Source: Pseudofabraea citricarpa
Lineage: Eukaryota > Ascomycota > Leotiomycetes > Helotiales > Dermateaceae
Direction of reading: 5' to 3'
Length of the DNA: 64,000 bases
Assembly (NCBI GenBank): GCA_029641185.1
Contig: JAPWGK010000006.1
Span: forward strand, 248,001-312,000
A program made the translations under genes and the position numbers. This document shows, piece after piece, positions 37,296 to 62,467 of this stretch (position 1 is the first letter of the stretch; every line of letters begins with the position of its first letter). The notes beneath the pieces were generated by a model. It made no database searches, was not told the origin of the DNA, and saw nothing but the letters and a program-made list of their open reading frames with translations.

Positions 37296-38462
37296 TTATG
37301 CAGTGTTGTGGTATTCATCTTCCTTTACTGCTGAAAACCCCAAGGACATCTTCCAGATACGCCCAACAAGAAATCGTTCAGGATGTCTTGAGGGAGAGAT
37401 ACAATGCGGCAAGTACTGATACCAATCGCTTTCCACGTTGCGGTCAAAAAGGTGTAACACCTGCATGGACTCCATATATTCCGGGTAAAATCCACTCATT
37501 TCCCAGTCGATTATTCCAGATATCGTATACCCACCCTCAGTGTCTTGCTCTACCATGATATTCGCTGGGCGTACGTCGCCATGGGTGAAGACACACTCTA
37601 TGCTTGACGGAGGTAGAAAACTGCGTAGAAAGGCAGTGAATGTCGGACTTGGGGGTAATATATCAACAGAAAATTGAAAGTCTTCGAATGCTGATATCGT
37701 GTTAAGTTGCTGAGTGCTATGGTCGTCCATATGTAAATCTTGAACCCCCTCGCCGCTGACCCCTCCCATGTTATTACCTGGTGGCAATTTCAAGCTCCGG
37801 AGTGTGCTGAATATACTCTGTAGCCTGTTTTGGATCGATAGCTTGTTGTCGAGAGTAAGATTTGGCCAGGCTCTCTCTAGCGTTATTGATGGAATATAGG
37901 TCATGAGCATAATATAAACACCTGAAAATTTAATCAGCCCGTGAGGCTTAGGTGCTGGTATATCTGGAGCGTGCTTATCGAGGTACTGGAGAGACGTGTA
38001 CTCCGTGTAGCTGCGATTCACACGGATGATCTTTGCAGCAATCTCCTCATTGCACCTTAGGAAGGCGCCTGCCACTGGGTTCTCCCACAGCTTTGTTGAT
38101 GCTGATATCATTCTCTTAAGCGCACCCACTAGTTGGTCATTCGTGACTACCAGGCCATCGTCAATATAACCGGCTACGAGATTGGTTGCGGCATCGGATA
38201 ATGGAAATACGATTTCCGCAATCTTGGGACCGGAAACAAGCCTCTCGCAGAAACCCATTTTCTTTGGAGGAGGCTTCGACTTCTTAGCAACAGGAGGGTT
38301 AACCTCTTTGTGTATTTTACACAATGATGCAATCATATCCATTTCGGGGTCTGTCTCGAGTTCTGCTTTCAAGAGCTCCATCATTGCCTGGTTTCTCTCA
38401 GTCTTGGTGAATAATATTGTAGCGCCTGTGCGCAAAGCCCCATCGTTCTCGCCTCTAGACAT
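37296..38462 (-). CDS. APH-type phosphotransferase (protein kinase-like fold)
   Basis: Predicted 388-residue small-molecule kinase of the aminoglycoside phosphotransferase family, which is expanded in fungi and often of unknown substrate. The catalytic loop is FTHGDVRPANIMV and the metal-binding motif is GIIDWEMSGFYPEYME, both with the expected spacing. The N-lobe is recognisable only loosely (ILFTKTERNQAMMELL; IIRVNRSYTEYTSLQYL). The ATG at 38462 opens the frame. An alternative start at 38515 (MQSH) spliced by a GTAAGA..TAG intron into the same frame is also possible. It lies about 560 bp from, and on the same strand as, the RiPP-like precursor gene, so it might modify a cluster product or be unrelated. 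Confidence 0.85.
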   Translation of the reverse strand: MSRGENDGALRTGATILFTKTERNQAMMELLKAELETDPEMDMIASLCKIHKEVNPPVAKKSKPPPKKMGFCERLVSGPKIAEIVFPLSDAATNLVAGYIDDGLVVTNDQLVGALKRMISASTKLWENPVAGAFLRCNEEIAAKIIRVNRSYTEYTSLQYLDKHAPDIPAPKPHGLIKFSGVYIMLMTYIPSITLERAWPNLTLDNKLSIQNRLQSIFSTLRSLKLPPGNNMGGVSGEGVQDLHMDDHSTQQLNTISAFEDFQFSVDILPPSPTFTAFLRSFLPPSSIECVFTHGDVRPANIMVEQDTEGGYTISGIIDWEMSGFYPEYMESMQVLHLFDRNVESDWYQYLPHCISPSRHPERFLVGRIWKMSLGFSAVKEDEYHNTA

Positions 38463-39020: not shown

Positions 39021-39269
39021 CTAGCCAGAGAAATTCCCATAGTCTCCAAGTGGTGCGTCAGCTTCTGTGACTTTCTCAGAACGTGTCGAGTAAAACGTTC
39101 CATAATCTCCAAGTGGTGCGTCAGCTTCTGTGACTTTCTCAGCACGTGTTGAGTAAAACGTTCCATAATCTCCAAGGGCTTCGTCGGAATCAACCGCCTG
39201 CTCGGCACGTTTGCCGTAGAAAGTCCCATAATCTCCAAGAGCTTCGTCGGCATCAACAACTCTAGCGGA
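39021..39269 (-). repeat. 63-nt coding tandem repeat, four units
   Basis: Units in the precursor gene, on the minus strand: 39207-39269, 39144-39206, 39081-39143, and a shorter last one 39021-39080. Units two and three differ mainly before the core, and units three and four are almost identical over the leader part. This is consistent with recent duplication of the carboxy-terminal units. Confidence 0.85.
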
Positions 39270-39427
39270 AACTACTTCGGCCCTTTTACTGGACTCATTG
39301 ATTCCATCTACGAAAAATAAGTAAAATGTGCTGTATCAATTAAGGAATAGTAAGGATATTGTATACTAATTAATGGAAGAGACAAAGCCGCTCCAACGAG
39401 GGCTGACAGAACAAGTTGATAACGCAT
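39021..39427 (-). CDS. Secreted repeat peptide precursor, dikaritin RiPP-like
   Basis: Predicted 115-residue precursor. Exon 1 is 39367-39427 (ATG at 39427), the intron 39308-39366 (59 nt) and exon 2 39021-39307. Residues 1-18 are a signal peptide (YQLVLSALVGAALSLP). Then come four repeats at exact 21-residue spacing, with cores at about 44-51, 65-72, 86-93 and 107-114: LGDYGTFY three times and LGDYGNFS once. Each unit is led by an acidic stretch (DADEA, DSDEA, EADAP). KR dibasic Kex2-type sites occur at 28-29 and 53-54. The equivalent borders at 74-75 and 95-96 read TR. In known dikaritin pathways (ustiloxin, phomopsin, asperipin), Kex2 cuts such precursors and UstYa proteins cyclise Tyr-containing cores. 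Three UstYa-type genes lie in the next 5 kb. The core sequence is not one I recognise, and the product is not known. Confidence 0.82.
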
Positions 39428-40075
39428 TGCGGTCTGAGTGGATTTTGAATTGAAAACTCGTGGGCTTATTTGCGTCACTTAAACGTTTGTTATTGATGAA
39501 GATGAGAGTGTTGTTGATCTATTGAGCGACTGACTTCTGCTTCATATCCCTTCTTTATACCTATGAAACGCTGGGCTATCAGATTCTACGAAGTGAGCAC
39601 ATTTCCTGTACTTAGAAAGCAGTATGGTCTACGCAGGCTTTGCTATTATGCTTATAATAAGGTAAGCATCTTTCAAACTCATAAGTTGCCCAGCCTAATC
39701 ACAACATGAGGATCAAGCGACAGAAGCTTAACAGACAGAGATTACGCGATGACGGGTGCTTACGGCGAGTATTACGCGAAGGCTTACGCGACGAGGCTTA
39801 TGTCGTAATGCTCACGGGATAAACCTTACACGATTATTTCTTCTTCTGTGATCAACAGCATTGATTATTCTTGCAGAAATTTTACACTCCCTTACTTTAC
39901 TCAGCGTCCTTACTGTAATAAACTCAAGTGGACGAGACAAGGCCTGATAACCCTCCGACTGCCTGAGACCTCATTTCAAACTTTTGTTTCGACATTGGTA
40001 CTCTACGACATCTCAACAAAATTTCAAATTCTATCCATGCCACAATTTTGTTAGTGTGTATGTTATACATGAATT
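39428..40075. promoter_or_regulatory. Divergent promoter region, precursor / first UstYa-like gene
   Basis: 648 bp between two divergent start codons. TTACGCGA occurs at 39742-39749, 39772-39779 and 39784-39791, with a close variant TTACGGCGA near 39760, all within 50 bp. GTAAGCATC (39662-39670) and AAGCGAC (39715-39721) also occur in the other divergent UstYa promoter at 42.6-43.07 kb. These may be binding sites of a cluster regulator; this is inferred from repetition only. Confidence 0.4.
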
Positions 40076-41278
40076 ATGATTAATAAGTACGAAGACAGTG
40101 CAGCGGGCGGCTTCTGCTCAGAAATAAAGATGGACGAAGAAAGTTTATTAGAACATGCTGCAAGCCCTGGTTCCGATAAACGATGGAGAATTGACTGGAC
40201 CTCTATTTATGGCTTCAAGAACAATCGATGGAACTTAATACAACGCTGTGGCTCTACTTTCCAACAAAGTCTCAACCAGTTTCGAGAATCCATCACTCTA
40301 CGAGCTTTATTTTGTCACTTTCTCCTCGTTCTAGTCTATTTATCCATTCTCTCTGCAGTTTTGGTTCCCAGATTTCAATGTCAACCATCTCAGGATCGAA
40401 AAACAATAGTATATAGTGAGTTAAACCTTACCGTGCAAAAATACCGATATTTCGTACTTACACTAGTATTTATCAAGCGCCGGCCGAAGTTGCAACTGTC
40501 CAAGAAGCAAAGATCATCAGCGTCAAAATAAATGAGACGTCAAATATCTACAATGGAAAGCCATCGCCGGAGGTTGACAAGGCCTGGTCAGAACTTTTTC
40601 AATGTGAGTTGTAAATGGGTTCGTCCTTCTATGCAGATCACTTACGATCAATCAGACGCAAATATACGTGTGCCAAAGGAAGAACTTGATCGTACAGGGA
40701 GATCATCAATTAAATTGGCTGATGGTTCGGAAGATTACCTCGGTTCCCTCGGTAAGTCAAAGTCTTCGCTTTTACTTGTACCGAAGACTAATTGGTGATC
40801 AGATGTTTATCATCAGCTCCATTGCCTGGTAAGATATCGAACAGATTTGAAATAAAAATAAAAATAAACAAGCGCCACTAATAATATGAAATTAGAAGTA
40901 TATTCGCCATTACGTTCATCAAGACTATTACAATCTAGGCAAGACAAACGTCCCTAGTGTAGAGCATATCAGTAAGTTTTCACTCTTCCTGAGCAATGTA
41001 GCTGAACGCTTAAAAACTAATAAAATATTACAGACCACTGCATAGAAATGCTGCGCCAAGTTATCATGTGCAAGGCCGATACGGCACTCATGACATACGA
41101 GTGGCTTCCGGATTTTCCAGCCCCTTGGCCGAATTTTGGTATCCAACATGAGTGTGTAAATTGGGATCGCATAGATAGCTGGTCGAGGTCGCGTTCGATA
41201 GATGTATTTGACCCGAAGTACCTGCAGCATCCTAAATTTGGTATGTTTCTTGGGGGTTGGGGTGGGTGCTATAGCTAA
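40076..41278 (+). CDS. UstYa-family (DUF3328) oxidative cyclase-like protein, copy 1
   Basis: Predicted membrane-anchored protein of about 302 residues. Exons: 40076-40415, 40478-40603, 40656-40751, 40803-40828, 40896-40971, 41034-41278; introns 51-67 nt, phases consistent. One transmembrane helix at about 76-96 (LFCHFLLVLVYLSILSAVLV) is followed by the family pattern INETSNIYNGKPSPEVDKAW. The two signature motifs HQLHC (191-195, split from its flanks by introns) and HINHC (220-224, followed by IEMLRQVIMC) are both intact. UstYa proteins perform copper-dependent-like oxidative cross-linking or chlorination in fungal RiPP and other clusters. The end is uncertain: the frame reads through a possible donor at 41239 to the stop at 41276-41278. 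An ATG at 40130 is an alternative start. It is divergent from the precursor gene. Confidence 0.83.
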
Positions 41279-41892
41279 CAAGTATATGAGGGTTTTCTTA
41301 CGCACATCTTGCTGGGTTGCCGTCTTCAAACGATACTAACAAGTAGAATATTAGGAGGAGTGAGTAACGATTATATAATTTTCTGTGTATATAAGATTTA
41401 GAAGAATTTAATGTACCCATCTATCATAGCTTTGGACAATGGACGATTCAGGCTCGATGATGTAAGGCGCTGAATTGAATCCATCCAGTCCTCCCTAGAT
41501 GTCCTGGAAGATCCTGGTTCACTACTCAACAGTTGTTTTTCATGATACTTGAGATATTGCAGTCTTTTAACCCTATGCGATGATGATGTATTGACAGTAA
41601 AATGTAAACTTGGTGTTATGAAATGATTCTCTAATAAATATCATGAATGTTGCAATTGGCCCATCACAGTGTATATCTTAGGATTAACTGGAAAAGATAC
41701 TGCTTCAAACGAAAGTCTGATGACCATTACCATGGCCTCCAGTCACATGAAAAGTTCTGCTGTAGAAATTGACGCAAGACAATAAAACATTTTGCATGTT
41801 AAGGGCCAAATTTCGAAGCTGGGAGATGTTTTGAAATCGAAATTATATTAATGCTATCTTACTCATGACTAAAGACCACCGCACAAATTTCT
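41279..41892. other. Intergenic region between UstYa-like copies 1 and 2
   Basis: Convergent 3' flanks, AT-rich, no gene seen. Confidence 0.4.
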
Positions 41893-42599
41893 TCAGTGTC
41901 CATGCATGCCAGAATGACCATGTGCTTTTGGACCCTGTCCTTCCGGCCAGTGAGAAGCCAATGACTGTTCATACCAGATTGCCGGATTATTACAGTAGTG
42001 CGGAACCATCCCATCGGTCTTTGGAATCTCGCCTTTAGTATCCATGATCGTCGGCTCAATAGACCCATCTGCATAACACAGAAAAACCTAAATCGCATCA
42101 GCATGAAGGATCAAGCATAAATCTATCACTATCTTACCTGACGAAGATAATCTAAACAATGCAAAAGATGCCTCTCGTCAATATGATGCAGCACATTATC
42201 TTTCCCGTCGCTCCTACCATCCAATCTCGCATACAACTCCTGAAAGTCCTCGCGGAACATCTGCACACAGTGAAGCTGATGAAACATCGCTATCCCATAG
42301 ACCTTCGAATCAGATCGGGAATCGTCAAAGAAAAACCCTCCGTTAGGAGTTATCAGGTCCCGCCAAAGTTTGTCGGCACTCGAATCAAAAGTCTGGTAGG
42401 ATCTTTCTTCCTTGAAGATCGTGGCAGTGTTGTTGCCGGCGGGACAGCTGGATAGAGATCCTCTCATTGTCGCTAGTCCTGCACTGATCTGCTGGTTAAA
42501 GAGAATAATGAAGAAGGCACATATGGAGCCGAGGATGAGGAAGCTCCGGAGAAAGAGGTGCTTATTGTTGTTCGTGCCATGCCATTTGGGGTTCTCCAT
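41893..42599 (-). CDS. UstYa-family (DUF3328) protein, copy 2
   Basis: Predicted 218-residue protein from two exons on the minus strand: 42138-42599 and 41893-42087, with a 50-nt intron. A short cytosolic N-terminus and one membrane helix (about 15-37, FLRSFLILGSICAFFIILF) precede the lumenal domain. That domain has SADKLWRDLITPNGGFF, HQLHC (107-111, then VQMFREDFQELY) and HLLHC (144-148, then LDYLRQVFLCYAD). The tail is CNNPAIWYEQSLASHWPEG and ends histidine-rich (AHGHSGMHGH), which could bind metal. Both HxxHC motifs are intact. It is divergent from copy 3 with 467 bp between the starts. Confidence 0.9.
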
Positions 42600-43066
42600 T
42601 GTTCAAAATTATGAGTGGTATAATTATTATTTTCTCACCAGAAGAGAGATTGTGCAAAGCCCAAAACTATCTGCAAGAACTGTCTTGTTTTAATTAGTGT
42701 TTGACTTTGTATTGCTAGCAACACGTGTCGGTCGCTTATTTTGCTTATTGGTTACTGCATAGTAAGGTGACGGTGATCGTCAGATAAGCAACAGTAAGCA
42801 TCATTACTAAAGTCATTACTGTATAAGCGACAAACTCATCATAATCAAACATAGAAAGCTTACTTTAGTGATTGAAACTATGCTGGTAACCGAAATCATT
42901 TCTTCATCAAGTAAACTTTTGGTCTGGGCCTTATTTTGATGAGTAATGCCAAAATCAGAAGAGCGGAAGGATAGCATAGGCGAAACTTATAGATCTTTTC
43001 TCCTCGTCTCTGTTTGATTTAGGAATGACTTGTCTATCAATATTGAAACCGACTCCAACAAAAATT
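42600..43066. promoter_or_regulatory. Divergent promoter region, UstYa-like copies 2 and 3
   Basis: 467 bp between divergent starts. GTCGCTTAT at 42731-42739 and its inverse ATAAGCGAC at 42833-42841 form a widely spaced palindrome. GTAAGCATC at 42794-42802 also occurs in the precursor/copy 1 promoter. A CACGTG is at 42722-42727. No factor can be named. Confidence 0.35.
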
Positions 43067-44056
43067 ATGAGCGGCATATACTCCCCACTCAAGGATGAAT
43101 ACGAATCATCTGAAAGTCTTGACAGTATATCAGATACTAGCGGAGAACGTGAATATGTGTTATCCCGCGACCGGAGTTGGAAACGTTTCAAACCATTAAT
43201 TATCACATTAACTCTGTTAATAACATTCTCCGCTGCTGCTATGCTGCTATTACTCAAACTTCAGGAGAAACCACATATCATCAACTCACCAATCCCCGAA
43301 TGCATGTCTAAAATCTGTATCAAAATCCTATTATGCATTTACTGAAGATATGCAGTTCCGTTAGAAACGGTTATATTCCGAAACTACTCAGATTTCAACA
43401 ACGCGCCAACACCAGAGAACAATGCTTTATGGATGGATCTACTAGGCCGTAAACAAAAACCCACCCCAGAATTCTAGTGACCAACTTACTGAAAGCAAAC
43501 ATGCAGCTGGGATGGGATTCATCTCGATTGAAAATCCCAACAAATACGGATTACCACCGGGAGTAAGGAATCCGCACTCGCCGGCCAACACGCAGACGTT
43601 TGGGATCAGTATGTACCATCAACTCCACTGTCTAGTAAGCCCCATCTCAAGTTTTGCAATTTATAAAAAGGAAAGAAAGAAGAAGAAAAAGCTGATGGTA
43701 CGCAAGATGATGATCCGAGGCCTCTATTGGGAGGCTCTCCATGGCGAACGCAATCTACAGTTATTGGGCGATGAGAAGTTGCCCGACGATATCCATCATA
43801 CGAATCATTGCTTTGATTATCTGCGCCAGGCTATCATGTGTGCCGGCGATATGTCGATCGAAGGTCGCGCGCCCCCGGGTCATATTGTGGCAGACCATGT
43901 CAATGGGATGGATCAGAAACATGTATGTAGGAGTTGGGTATGTAATTCCTGTGTTCTGAGATCCCACAAGTATTTGACAGTTACGCTCTGGGACTGATTT
44001 ATGTGTTTTAGGAGGCCTCGAGGGCTTGGATGGATGACAATCTTCCACCGATGTAG
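43067..44056 (+). CDS. UstYa-family (DUF3328) protein, copy 3
   Basis: Predicted 238-residue protein. Exons: 43067-43301, 43356-43448, 43507-43634, 43707-43922, 44012-44056. One helix at about 43-63 is followed by PLETVIFRNYSDF, ALWMDLLGPGMGFISIENP (a UstYa hallmark formed after splicing), HQLHC (147-151) and HTNHC (183-187, then FDYLRQAIMCAGD). The end is DDNLPPM. The first intron (43302-43355, 54 nt) appears to use a GC donor (T/GCATGT); the only nearby GT alternative gives a 39-nt intron and a slightly longer exon. An in-frame ATG at 43025 is an alternative start. The three UstYa copies differ in length and intron pattern, so they are distinct family members, not recent tandem duplicates. 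Confidence 0.85.
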
Positions 44057-46540: not shown

Positions 46541-48715
46541 TTAAACACGGCACAAGCGACCGTTTTGAGTTGGGAGGAATTCGAGCTGGCCAGTGATGTA
46601 CCAGTTCTCACTTCCGACACCTGTAGGAGCGTACAGGAGGCCTCGAGGATCGTATTTCTGCTTGATGGTATAAAGACGATCATAGTTGCTGCCATAGAAG
46701 GCCTGTTGAAAGTCGGGCTCAGAGATATCGGCCTCGGACATGTAGGCGCCTGCATTTGGAGAGACATCTCTCCATTGTTGCATAAGGTTGTTGGTCAAGT
46801 TCTCTGAAGCGGCAGCGATGGTGGCATCAGAGGCACCGTCGGCAATGAGTGGTGCAGCCAAGATGGCGTGGAGGCAGGTTTCGCGCCATGCAGGGTTGAC
46901 AGAGTTGGAAGGATATCCTGACTTTGGTGCAGCAGCGATGTTGAAAGCAAGAAGGGATCCACCTGCGTCAACGGTTGACTTGATAGCGCTGAAGGTGGCA
47001 TTGAGGGTAGCAGCGTCTTCCCAGTTGGACTTGGGGAAAAGACGAGAAGCAGTTTTGATGGTGGTGGCGCCGACCGTCTCAAGAGGGAAAACAGCCCACC
47101 ATCCATCGTAGAAGTTGTCGTAGTGGTTGGTCACGGGTGTGACATCGATACCGAGAGCAGCAAGTCTGGTGAACCATGGCTCAAGGAGAGCCTCTGTCTG
47201 GGCTACAGTCGAGTTGGGAGCCCAGAAAGGAGCCATGCTAAAGGCGTAGCTGTCAGCCCCAGTCAGGAAGATGCTGAAGTACGCATAGGTGCCTGCATCG
47301 GTGTTGTCAATGAAGTAGTCGAAATATGCGCGGACACCAGCCCAGAAGGCAGTTGAGGAGACGGAAGATCCAGTAGCGAAGGAGAAAGTCATAGTGGTGA
47401 CTGGGATAACTGGGAAGACCTTGACAACGACTGAGGTAACGATTCCGTAAGTTCCACCGCCGCCTCCTCGGAGAGCCCAGAAGAGATCAGTGTTGACAGA
47501 TTCGCTAGCAGTCACGAAACGTCCATCAGGAGTGACAACTTCGAAAGCGAGAACCTGATCAGCAGCCATGCCGTAAAGACTGGAGAGAGGAGAGTGTCCA
47601 CCACCAGCCAAGAAGCCACCAGCAACACCGACAGTTCGTCCTTCGCCTCCAACAACAGTGAAACCTCCAGCCTTAGCAGCGGCGTAGATTTCTTGAGCTT
47701 GAACACCGGCACCCATCTTGACGGCCTTGCCACTGTATGAGGCAGTCTTGTAGTTGTTAAGGACAGTGATATCCTTCAAGTGATGGGTCCAGATGGACAG
47801 GGATCCAGCACCAGCGGACTTGCCATTGAAATCGTGGCCAGTGTTCTTGACGACAAGACGAATGTTAGCGTTTCTTGCAAAGTTCACAGCAAGTTGGATG
47901 TGTGCAACATTTGAGACGTTAACAACGTAATTGGGGTATGCGCCCAAAGTGCAAGAATCAGTAGGATCATCAGTTGGCATGCAGGTACGTCCTTGGTAGA
48001 TTGGCCACATTACAGAGGTTGGGTCCTCCATACTATTGTCGGTTAGTGGTGGTTCATCATTGGAAAATTACGGTCGCTTACTGGAAAGTAGAGTTTGCCC
48101 ATTGATCATTGACATAATCACACTCTGAGGAGCTGTAATCATTCCATGAATTGTAACAACTTGATGCTGATGGGACAGTTGAGATCAAACGACCTCCGAG
48201 AACCAAGTCGAAGAGCCACCAGACAATGGGCGAAGGCCAGAAAGCGTCTCCAGGGTAGACTTTGCATGCACCAGATCGCTTCTCTACAGTGGAAGAAGCC
48301 TCGTCGTCAAATGCAAACAGGGTAGCATTATCGAGGGAGATGGCTGTCAAGTTAGAAATGACGGCATCAGTGAGCTGGATAGTCTCTGCAGCAGAGAGAG
48401 CTACACCAGCATCAGATGTGGTATCTGCTACAACAGCAGCAGCTGGTGCAAGAGTTGAAGCATTCACAGCTGTCGATCAGAGTTAGCAAGGGTTTGAGGA
48501 ATTCAACAACCAACCAAGGTCCAATTGAGCTTTCTGAACAGGCAGAAATCAAATGGTTGTGGGGCCTCAGGCTCTCGACTCTTTCACGGATTGTTTGGGA
48601 ACTTACCAACTGTAGTATCATCGACCGTGATGGTGCTGTTGGCTGTTTGAGCCAAAGCAGGTGTAAACAGAAGCAAAGAGGCTGCGAGCCACTTGCAAGG
48701 GGATGAAACAGCCAT
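46541..48715 (-). CDS. Secreted FAD-linked oxidoreductase with BBE domain
   Basis: Predicted 662-residue secreted flavoprotein of the berberine-bridge-enzyme type. Exons on the minus strand: 48607-48715, 48082-48469, 46541-48032; introns 137 and 49 nt. A signal peptide (CKWLAASLLLFTPALAQT) is on exon 1, with a KR site (VEKRSG) in exon 2. The FAD_binding_4 domain has WPIYQGRTC, VVKNTGHDFNGKSAG, GGEGRTVGVAGGFLAGGGHS and ALRGGGGGTYGIVTSVVVK. The C-terminal BBE motif is YDRLYTIKQKYDPRGLLYAPTG. These enzymes oxidise sugars or secondary-metabolite intermediates. It is in the accessory part of the window, 2.3 kb beyond the UstYa genes, and could serve that pathway or cell-wall sugar oxidation. Confidence 0.9.
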
Positions 48716-60774: not shown

Positions 60775-62467
60775 ATGGATGATATCAAATTCAATCCAAC
60801 CGAGATGGAGCACCTCGACGAAGTCCAACAAAGATGGTACAAGACATGCATCAAAGACTCTGAGCCACGCTCTCAAATTGGCAAGATGATTACTCTTGCA
60901 TCACATACCCTCCGGTCTAGCCTACGCCCGTTCAATTTGTTCCAGGACCCCACAGCGACCGAAGACAAATGCGTAAGTTGTATATTGAGAGCTTGAGAGG
61001 TGGAAATAACTCTAATTTTCGTAGCAAGCATATGGGATAAGAAAACGACGAATGCTAGAGTTCAAGTTAGGTACCTTTTACAGTAGCGATTATGACATGG
61101 TGGGTAAACCCATGGATACAGCTGAGCAGAAAGCTAACTGTGAAACACAGAATCGTGACGAACCTGAAGCGACAGCATCATATACTTCCTGCACTGGGTC
61201 TCAAGGGGCCAAGTTCTCTTCCCTACTCGATCAGATAAAAGCCGAGTACGCTCGGAAAGGAGTAAACGTAACATTCTACGAGTGCCAAATCAACAGCCCA
61301 ACGCACTGCAAAATCGGTGTAGCCCGCGGGCCTCTTGAGAACAACTCCCCCCCTGCAATCGATACGTTGGATATTATTTTGGGTATCCTTTTTGTTGTCT
61401 GTTTCCTAGATATGACATATTACTTCTGTACGGGTACTTTTTTCAAGCAGGGTCCAACCAAGAAGCAGGGTAAGGAACGAAAAAGAGCTTTGGAAGAAAA
61501 AGAAAAAGAACTCCGCGAAGAAGAACAAACAAGGGAAGAACAAACGAGGGAAGCAGAGAACCAAGACTGTGCCATTTCCGGGGAAAGTTTGCCCGAGCCA
61601 GACAATTGGGGCTATGTTGGATTTTGTGAGTATAAAGCGTTTTTGGAAAGCCAAGGTAAAAGCCTCGAGAGCATAATCCAAGAGAATCGGGATTTGAATA
61701 CGAAAGAAAGCACACTCCCGCAAGATACATCTCAAGAGAACTTGGATTCGAATATACAAGAAAGCACACTCTCCGGGACAGCTCAAGAGAACTTGGATTC
61801 GAATATACAAGAAAGCGCACTCTCCGAGACATGCCAAGAGAACTTGGATTGGAATAACGGAGAGAACGAATCTCGCCGAGAGATAGCCGAGGAGACTCAA
61901 AACTATGGCTACGCGCACATAGATGCAGCGTACAGACCCATTTCGCAAGCATCACAACTGACAACCGGCAGCAGTATTGATGATGTATGCTACACGCCAG
62001 AAACTTCTTCGAGCATGGAACAGGATGTTGAAGAAGAATTGAGGCTCGAATGGGCTCAGTCGGTCCCAGCATTGGAGTATGATATCGAAGCAGAAAACCA
62101 AGAAGAAGAATTGGGGTATGAATGGGCTCAGTCAATCCCAGCATTGGAGCATGATATCGAAGCAGAAAACCAAGAAGAACTGAGGTATGAATGGGCTCAG
62201 TTGGTCCCAGCATTGAAGTATGGTTTCAAAGCAGAAAACCAAGAAGAAGAACTGAGGTACGAATGGTATACGGAGCCGGAATCGGAGCTCATTTACGACG
62301 AAGATCCTGAAGAACAGATCTTTGAGGGAATGTCTGGCAACGAACAGTATTATGATGCTGATTATAACGTAGATACTTCAGAGGAGGAGAACAAAGAGGA
62401 TTCTGGGGGAGAAAGCTCTGACGAAGATTGGGCCAGTGTGAGTGAAGGTGGCATTCGATGTGAATGA
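60775..62467 (+). CDS. Orphan single-pass membrane protein with acidic tandem repeats
   Basis: Predicted 546-residue protein of unknown function. Exon 1 is 60775-60972, the intron 60973-61024 (52 nt) and exon 2 61025-62467. No signal peptide is seen. Residues 76-178 are a mixed domain with several cysteines (YTSCTG, FYECQINSPTHCKIG). A hydrophobic helix follows at about 179-199 (LDIILGILFVVCFLDMTYY). Then come a basic/acidic coiled-coil segment (about 214-245, ALEEKEKELREEEQTREEQ) and two repeat arrays. Array one (284-343) repeats QENLDSNIQES about three times. Array two (403-480) repeats a 24-residue unit built on EWAQSVPALEYDIEAENQEE. The tail is very acidic. Start context and splice borders are good, and the repeats are clearly translated rather than noise. 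Confidence 0.75.
61676..62266 (+). repeat. Two in-frame tandem repeat arrays in the orphan membrane protein gene
   Basis: Array one, about 61676-61855, has units of about 48-51 nt encoding QENLDSNIQES. Array two, about 62033-62266, has about three units of 66-72 nt encoding EWAQSVPALEYDIEAENQ. Units within each array are close to identical at DNA level. Confidence 0.75.

Follow-up and report, generated by a model that had tools for sequence, protein, structure and literature searches.

A candidate dikaritin-type peptide locus with an LGDYG-repeat precursor and three UstYa-family genes in Pseudofabraea citricarpa

Repeat precursors with UstYa-family (DUF3328) neighbours are a kind of system already known from many fungi. 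In Umemura 2020 (PMC7329392), 1758 of 7878 Kex2-processed repeat proteins (KEPs) have DUF3328 neighbours, with a mean of 1.7 DUF3328 genes each, and the ustiloxin and phomopsin systems combine a signal peptide, repeated Tyr-containing cores and several UstYa homologues (2 and 5). The same layout is found at positions 39,021 to 44,056 of a 64,000-nucleotide stretch of Pseudofabraea citricarpa DNA (assembly GCA_029641185.1, contig JAPWGK010000006.1, positions 248,001 to 312,000, forward strand; hereafter the window), where a repeat precursor gene stands beside three UstYa genes and resembles ustiloxin and phomopsin in its repeated Tyr-containing cores and several UstYa genes, and in an N-terminus that looks signal-like. 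An earlier sequence-only reading of the window, made without database searches, had proposed this locus as an undescribed, dikaritin-type candidate for a ribosomally synthesized and post-translationally modified peptide (RiPP). As a candidate claim this was supported by our analysis, and we consider it highly likely that the locus is a dikaritin-type RiPP cluster, consisting of a repeat precursor and UstYa oxidases that would act on an LGDYG[T/N/K][F/I]Y core. The rarity that the earlier reading implied was not borne out, given the 1758 KEPs with DUF3328 neighbours and the several UstYa homologues already used by phomopsin (PMC7329392, PMC10512285).

The repeat precursor and the three UstYa genes

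The four genes form two divergent pairs within 5.0 kb, a layout on which our gene models and the sequence-only reading agree. All exon models, listed here with window positions, were built from sequence and homology.

39021..39427, minus strand: repeat precursor gene (KEP-type), 115 aa; splice model from sequence, with a homologue in Diplocarpon coronariae
39427..39367, minus strand: precursor exon 1, followed by a GT-AG intron at 39366..39308 (59 bases) and exon 2 at 39307..39021
39216..39239, minus strand: core 1, LGDYGTFY, then GKR (this and the other cores from translation of the precursor model)
39153..39176, minus strand: core 2, LGDYGTFY, then STR
39090..39113, minus strand: core 3, LGDYGTFY, then STR
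39027..39050, minus strand: core 4, LGDYGNFS (degenerate), followed by G and a stop codon
39428..40075, no strand: divergent upstream region common to the precursor and UstYa-A, with three TTACGCGA
40076..41346, plus strand: UstYa-A, seven exons, 308 aa; HQLHC at 191, HINHC at 220 (Pfam, motif, orthologues)
41893..42599, minus strand: UstYa-B, exons 42599..42138 and 42087..41893, 218 aa; HQLHC at 107, HLLHC at 144 (Pfam, motif)
43067..44056, plus strand: UstYa-C, 243 aa from five exons with a GC-AG first intron; HQLHC at 147, HTNHC at 183 (Pfam, motif)

In the two-exon model, the precursor protein reads MRYQLVLSALVGAALSLPLINGINESSKR and then continues as four repeat units at 21-residue spacing, with cores starting at residues 44, 65, 86 and 107. 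The underlying 63-nt (21-aa) tandem repeat at 39037-39257 was picked up independently by a repeat search and by Tandem Repeats Finder. A chance origin of the repeat was rejected: shuffling the precursor 20,000 times never gave any 5-mer three times, and the real protein has LGDYG four times. No second copy was found in the source genome, the sole candidate being the precursor itself. What the sequence-only reading had described, a secreted protein with four 21-residue repeats and KR sites, stands with regard to the repeats; the N-terminus, MRYQLVLSALVGAALSLPL, is signal-like by eye only, and that of the D. coronariae homologue is similar. KR, however, is present only in SSKR ahead of repeat 1 and GKR after core 1, whereas the separators following cores 2 and 3 are STR. 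Kex2 release, also claimed earlier, is uncertain for cores 2 to 4, because the separators there are STR.

The three TTACGCGA copies upstream of the precursor all lie on one strand at 39700-39800; the window has four in total, none of them between UstYa-B and UstYa-C, and the motif may be a regulator site.

The description of the three UstYa genes as intact and mutually diverged was confirmed, as was their placement in DUF3328, for which a profile search had been proposed. Each has open frames and the double HxxHC motif (HxxHC(x)nHxxHC), and all three proteins fall in PF11807 (UstYa/DUF3328) at 184 (A), 66 (B) and 116 bits (C) against a gathering cut-off of 25, scores that come from provisional models in which the final exon of A was missing and a few exon-join residues of A and C were wrong. 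Their pairwise local identity is 25-33% in the main BLASTP alignments. By hydropathy only, all three have an N-terminal membrane anchor: a 19-residue maximum of 2.4-2.5 starts at residue 79 in A, 15 in B and 45 in C, upstream of both motifs. In CctR, the double HxxHC motif has been reported as the binuclear copper centre of a copper-dependent oxidase, and His/Cys alanine mutants were inactive (PMC12435403).

Several gene-model choices leaned on orthologues. For UstYa-A, we took the exon 1-2 acceptor that agrees with the orthologue from Phlyctema vagabunda and rejected a stop at 41278 in favour of an orthologue-like seventh exon running to 41346, whose end, KFG-FSYAHLAGLPSSN, resembles the orthologues from Phlyctema and "Diplocarpon mali". 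Reading the first intron of UstYa-C as GC..AG yields SPIPEFPLETVIFRNYS, in agreement with GPVPNLPTEAIIFGNYS of Leptodontidium orthologue P0058. Among solved structures, UstYa-C had one chance-level match (E 0.089) and the UstYa-B profile had none up to E 1; UstYa-B exon 1 matched no plasmid record, an uninformative result from a bacterial collection.

Conservation of the core and of gene linkage

Codon differences among cores 1 to 3 comprise 6 synonymous and 0 amino-acid-changing ones (three pairs, non-independent), and the ten codons upstream of each core give 4 and 19 in the same pairs. When core 4 is included, the six pairs show 13 synonymous and 6 changing differences in the cores, and 7 and 34 in the spacers. 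A protein search identified a precursor homologue, B2J93_8799 (P0001), in Marssonina coronariae (= D. coronariae) at E 4.8e-8. It retains the MRYQL N-terminus, two copies of LGDYGTIY and one of LGDYGKIY, with KKR and EKR as separators, while its other spacers have diverged. Throughout the seven cores of the two species, LGDYG at positions 1 to 5 never varies, and only F or I stands at position 7. The core thus appears to be the constrained part of the precursor, with spacers that seem to vary freely.

Orthologues of the UstYa genes were compared by protein searches, one of which covered the best 120 of 348 matches with each cluster under one name; at most the first 75 matched proteins entered the identity comparison, and consecutive locus tags were taken as gene adjacency. 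UstYa-A has 12 matches at ≥226 bits, after which scores drop to ≤205 bits; the organisms named for these 12 are ones that we take to be Helotiales. In P. vagabunda, orthologues of A, B and C carry the consecutive tags PVAG01_06168, 06169 and 06170, with identities of 68%, 82% and 85% (C over 163 aa), and in "D. mali" those of A and B are JHW43_001292 and JHW43_001293, likewise consecutive. Tags of A and C are 1-2 apart in Cadophora gregata (consecutive), C. malorum, Cadophora M221 and DSE1049, and the two genes lie on equal-sized contigs in Leptodontidium MPI-SDFR-AT-0119, Rhexocercosporidium MPI-PUGE-AT-0058 and Cadophora MPI-SDFR-AT-0126. Leptodontidium PMI_412, Rhynchosporium and Rutstroemia each have a match to A, and the best 120 of 348 matches include no B or C under these names.

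The NCBI assemblies D. mali PGHB and M. coronariae NL1 are both D. coronariae under old names (PMC11527701), and we infer that the JHW43 tags belong to PGHB and the B2J93 tags to NL1. On this reading, the precursor, A and B would all be present in one species. Whether precursor and UstYa genes are kept together in relatives, a point raised by the sequence-only reading, can thus be answered in part: the UstYa genes are linked, and for the LGDYG precursor the evidence is co-occurrence with A and B in a species rather than direct adjacency to them. The relatives support the reading as a RiPP locus. At the level of sequence, then, a repeat precursor, three intact UstYa genes, and the conservation of the core and of these genes are established.

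Other repeat precursors in the genome

The source assembly comprises 44 Mb in 43 contigs and has UstYa profile matches at 46 places, counted exon by exon. Repeat frames were scanned at 30 loci and in the window, leaving out most of the C28, C34 and C42 flanks and parts of C23 and C43; locus L031 was read separately. Five further repeat precursors were found within ~2.5 kb of UstYa matches, which makes the present locus one of at least six.

C17, L015:3638-4543 (~160638-161543), plus strand: repeat protein with 12 near-identical units HHTAKQIAAKAGKANQRSVEEREP (HHTAKQIAAKAGKAN x12)
C42, L031:1446 onward, plus strand: 258-aa open frame, ten variable units by eye (QxxYxQ...Y; QAGYDQRALY type)
C18, L020:723-1289, plus strand: secreted-looking precursor with eight EFPFPTYAGVEKRE-type units (EFPFPTYAG x8), between UstYa matches
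C22, L023:1370-1798, minus strand: repeat precursor, KRQGIQGLHNYVTLKVKG x3
C22, L026:958-1374, minus strand: repeat precursor, VDAGLFTSLESIWNSYGYDEKKKR x3

The 12-copy frame on C17, ~2.3 kb from a UstYa match, has no KR or RR; MYTGSISQLFALGLLVTVPLTNAYA, a frame upstream of it, is a possible signal exon. In the C42 frame, which has a UstYa HQLHC exon ~1.3 kb away, separators are mostly KR, with KTR once. Both C22 precursors lie inside a 35-kb region with many UstYa matches. Together with the STR separators of the present locus, the KR-free sister precursor suggests that KR-keyed surveys may undercount such peptides.

Elsewhere in the window, a HIM1/NAD-binding frame lies ~20 kb or more from the locus, and a 480-aa open frame at 61025-62467 (plus strand) has diverged internal repeats (EWAQSVPALE.., QENLDSNIQES..) that are unrelated to the precursor locus.

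Predicted product, competing explanations and known systems

We infer expression, processing and all chemistry of the product, with endoplasmic reticulum (ER) entry, core oxidation and protease release modelled on known dikaritins. The signal peptide would take the precursor into the ER, where A, B and C, as membrane-anchored, lumen-facing copper oxidases, would oxidise the repeated core. Most likely, the Tyr4 phenol oxygen would be joined to the beta-carbon of Phe/Ile7 in an ether macrocycle, perhaps with a second modification at Tyr8. Proteases would then act on the Kex2 (KR) sites, and perhaps on the single-Arg STR sites too, before exopeptidases trim the released product. These steps would very probably yield a cross-linked cyclic peptide.

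The Tyr4-O to Cbeta(7) ring is our best guess by analogy, because Tyr4 and Phe/Ile7 are the sole side chains in every core that fit the known UstY ether. Residue 7 is a plausible acceptor in either form, since both types have been reported: asperipin-2a has a Tyr-O to Phe-Cbeta ether (PMC12186524) and phomopsin a Tyr-Ile ether (PMC6514808). The sequence-only reading had suggested that three cyclases could mean more than one cross-link or a division of labour, and more than one cross-link is possible. The number of cross-links need not equal that of the UstYa genes, because three UstYa homologues of the phomopsin pathway serve desaturation as well as cyclisation (PMC10512285) and other UstYa proteins hydroxylate or halogenate (PMC12435403).

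Several observations weigh against a dikaritin-type cluster. Two separators are without a dibasic site and core 4 is without Tyr8; of the 19 core codons that differ across the six pairs, 6 change the residue, every one involving core 4. The precursor has a single homologue at E up to 1 (889 candidates searched), and the Cadophora A-C pairs have no known precursor. The two divergent upstream regions have some 7-mers in common but no 8- or 9-mer (filter: at least 3 copies overall and at least 1 in each). Tyrosinase, S41 peptidase and methyltransferase were not recognised by Pfam in 26 window proteins and open frames, in which short exons could be missed. An MFS frame lies ~20 kb or more away and a Zn2Cys6 regulator >20 kb, and the immediate flanks of the UstYa genes are a kinase and an oxidase, both assigned by Pfam.

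37296-38462, minus strand: APH-type phosphotransferase
46541-48067, minus strand: BBE flavin oxidase

Four other explanations were weighed. It is possible, though unlikely, that two pathways meet here, with A and C an older pair for another peptide and B specific to the LGDYG core; this is a variant of the dikaritin-type reading and does not exclude it. A and C are linked, and B does not appear under the same names in the best 120 of 348 matches, in seven genomes: six Cadophora, Leptodontidium and Rhexocercosporidium strains with A and C contigs of equal size, and C. gregata, where the tags are consecutive. D. coronariae has A and B along with the precursor, with C not among the matches listed. 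Phlyctema, on the other hand, has A, B and C under consecutive tags, the same as in the source locus, and with clusters under one name each, a gene missing from those matches may still be present.

We think it improbable that the precursor stays largely uncut between cores before modification, so that, with KR present at two sites only, the UstYa proteins would act on three LGDYG cores still joined in tandem; the similarly improbable outcome would be a multi-core cross-linked peptide or release by a different, single-Arg protease. If this were true, an entire class could escape genome surveys that rely on Kex2 sites, since a 12-copy UstYa-adjacent precursor free of KR and RR is present in the same genome.

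There is little to recommend a linear, unmodified, pheromone-like or other signalling peptide, with UstYa genes that are chance neighbours or serve another metabolite. KEPs without DUF3328 neighbours are indeed the majority (6120 of 7878, alpha-pheromones included), and the acidic/Ala spacers (DADEA, EADAP) resemble STE13-type XA/XP sites of pheromone precursors, but pheromone-type precursors with DUF3328 neighbours are three exceptions only (PMC7329392). Here, three UstYa genes lie in 5 kb, one of them with an upstream region common to the precursor; the core has Tyr, and D. coronariae has orthologues of A and B as well as the precursor. The core also has no Cys, versus the two-Cys pheromone type of Leotiomycetes (PMC6339444). 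An alpha-pheromone precursor as such was rejected on its unlike core and the UstYa neighbours.

No more probable is a decaying locus that is losing its last core as well as Kex2 sites and now makes little or no product: STR stands twice where KR is expected, core 4 is cut to GNFSG, and the two 3'-end repeat units are 95% identical in DNA (repeat search), so that the STR type may owe its spread to a late duplication, but A, B and C are all open and conserved, the intact cores differ only synonymously, and TR/QR separators also occur in other UstYa-adjacent precursors of this genome (C42 and C17), though this does not imply their cleavage.

The peptide core itself appears new, and the earlier "undescribed" fits: neither DYGTFY nor DYGTIY was found in the literature text searched, whose scope excluded subscription papers and supplements. 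LGDYG or GDYGT turned up there in ten papers, which deal with vaccines, antibodies, epitopes, T cells and proteomics, as judged by title. GDYG is absent from the main text of Umemura 2020 (PMC7329392), whose supplementary tables may list the type.

Compared with the ustiloxin and phomopsin group, the present locus has LGDYGTFY in place of YAIG, two STR separators in place of KR, and no tyrosinase recognised in the 26 proteins and open frames, which do not cover every exon. YVIPID is the other core of that group. Asperipin-2a (aprA/aprY) is alike in its aromatic core with a C-terminal Tyr, its small cluster and its Phe ether acceptor (predicted here). It differs in having an FYYTGY core and one UstYa (AprY) with a transporter and an isoflavone reductase; the present locus has three UstYa genes, with neither of these partners recognised beside it. 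The core of gigA, the epichloecyclin precursor, is not known to be related to LGDYGTFY. Like the present precursor, gigA has four repeats; it is secreted and cyclised on Tyr (PMC6514808), as would be expected here. Its repeats carry KR sites where ours has two STR separators. Beside these systems, the locus adds a core family, LGDYG[T/N/K][F/I]Y, seen in two Helotiales-type fungi, for which the predicted chemistry is clear (an ether from Tyr4-O to Cbeta of F/I7). Having three diverged oxidases of the copper type next to a single short core, it could also help to assign separate roles to UstYa enzymes.

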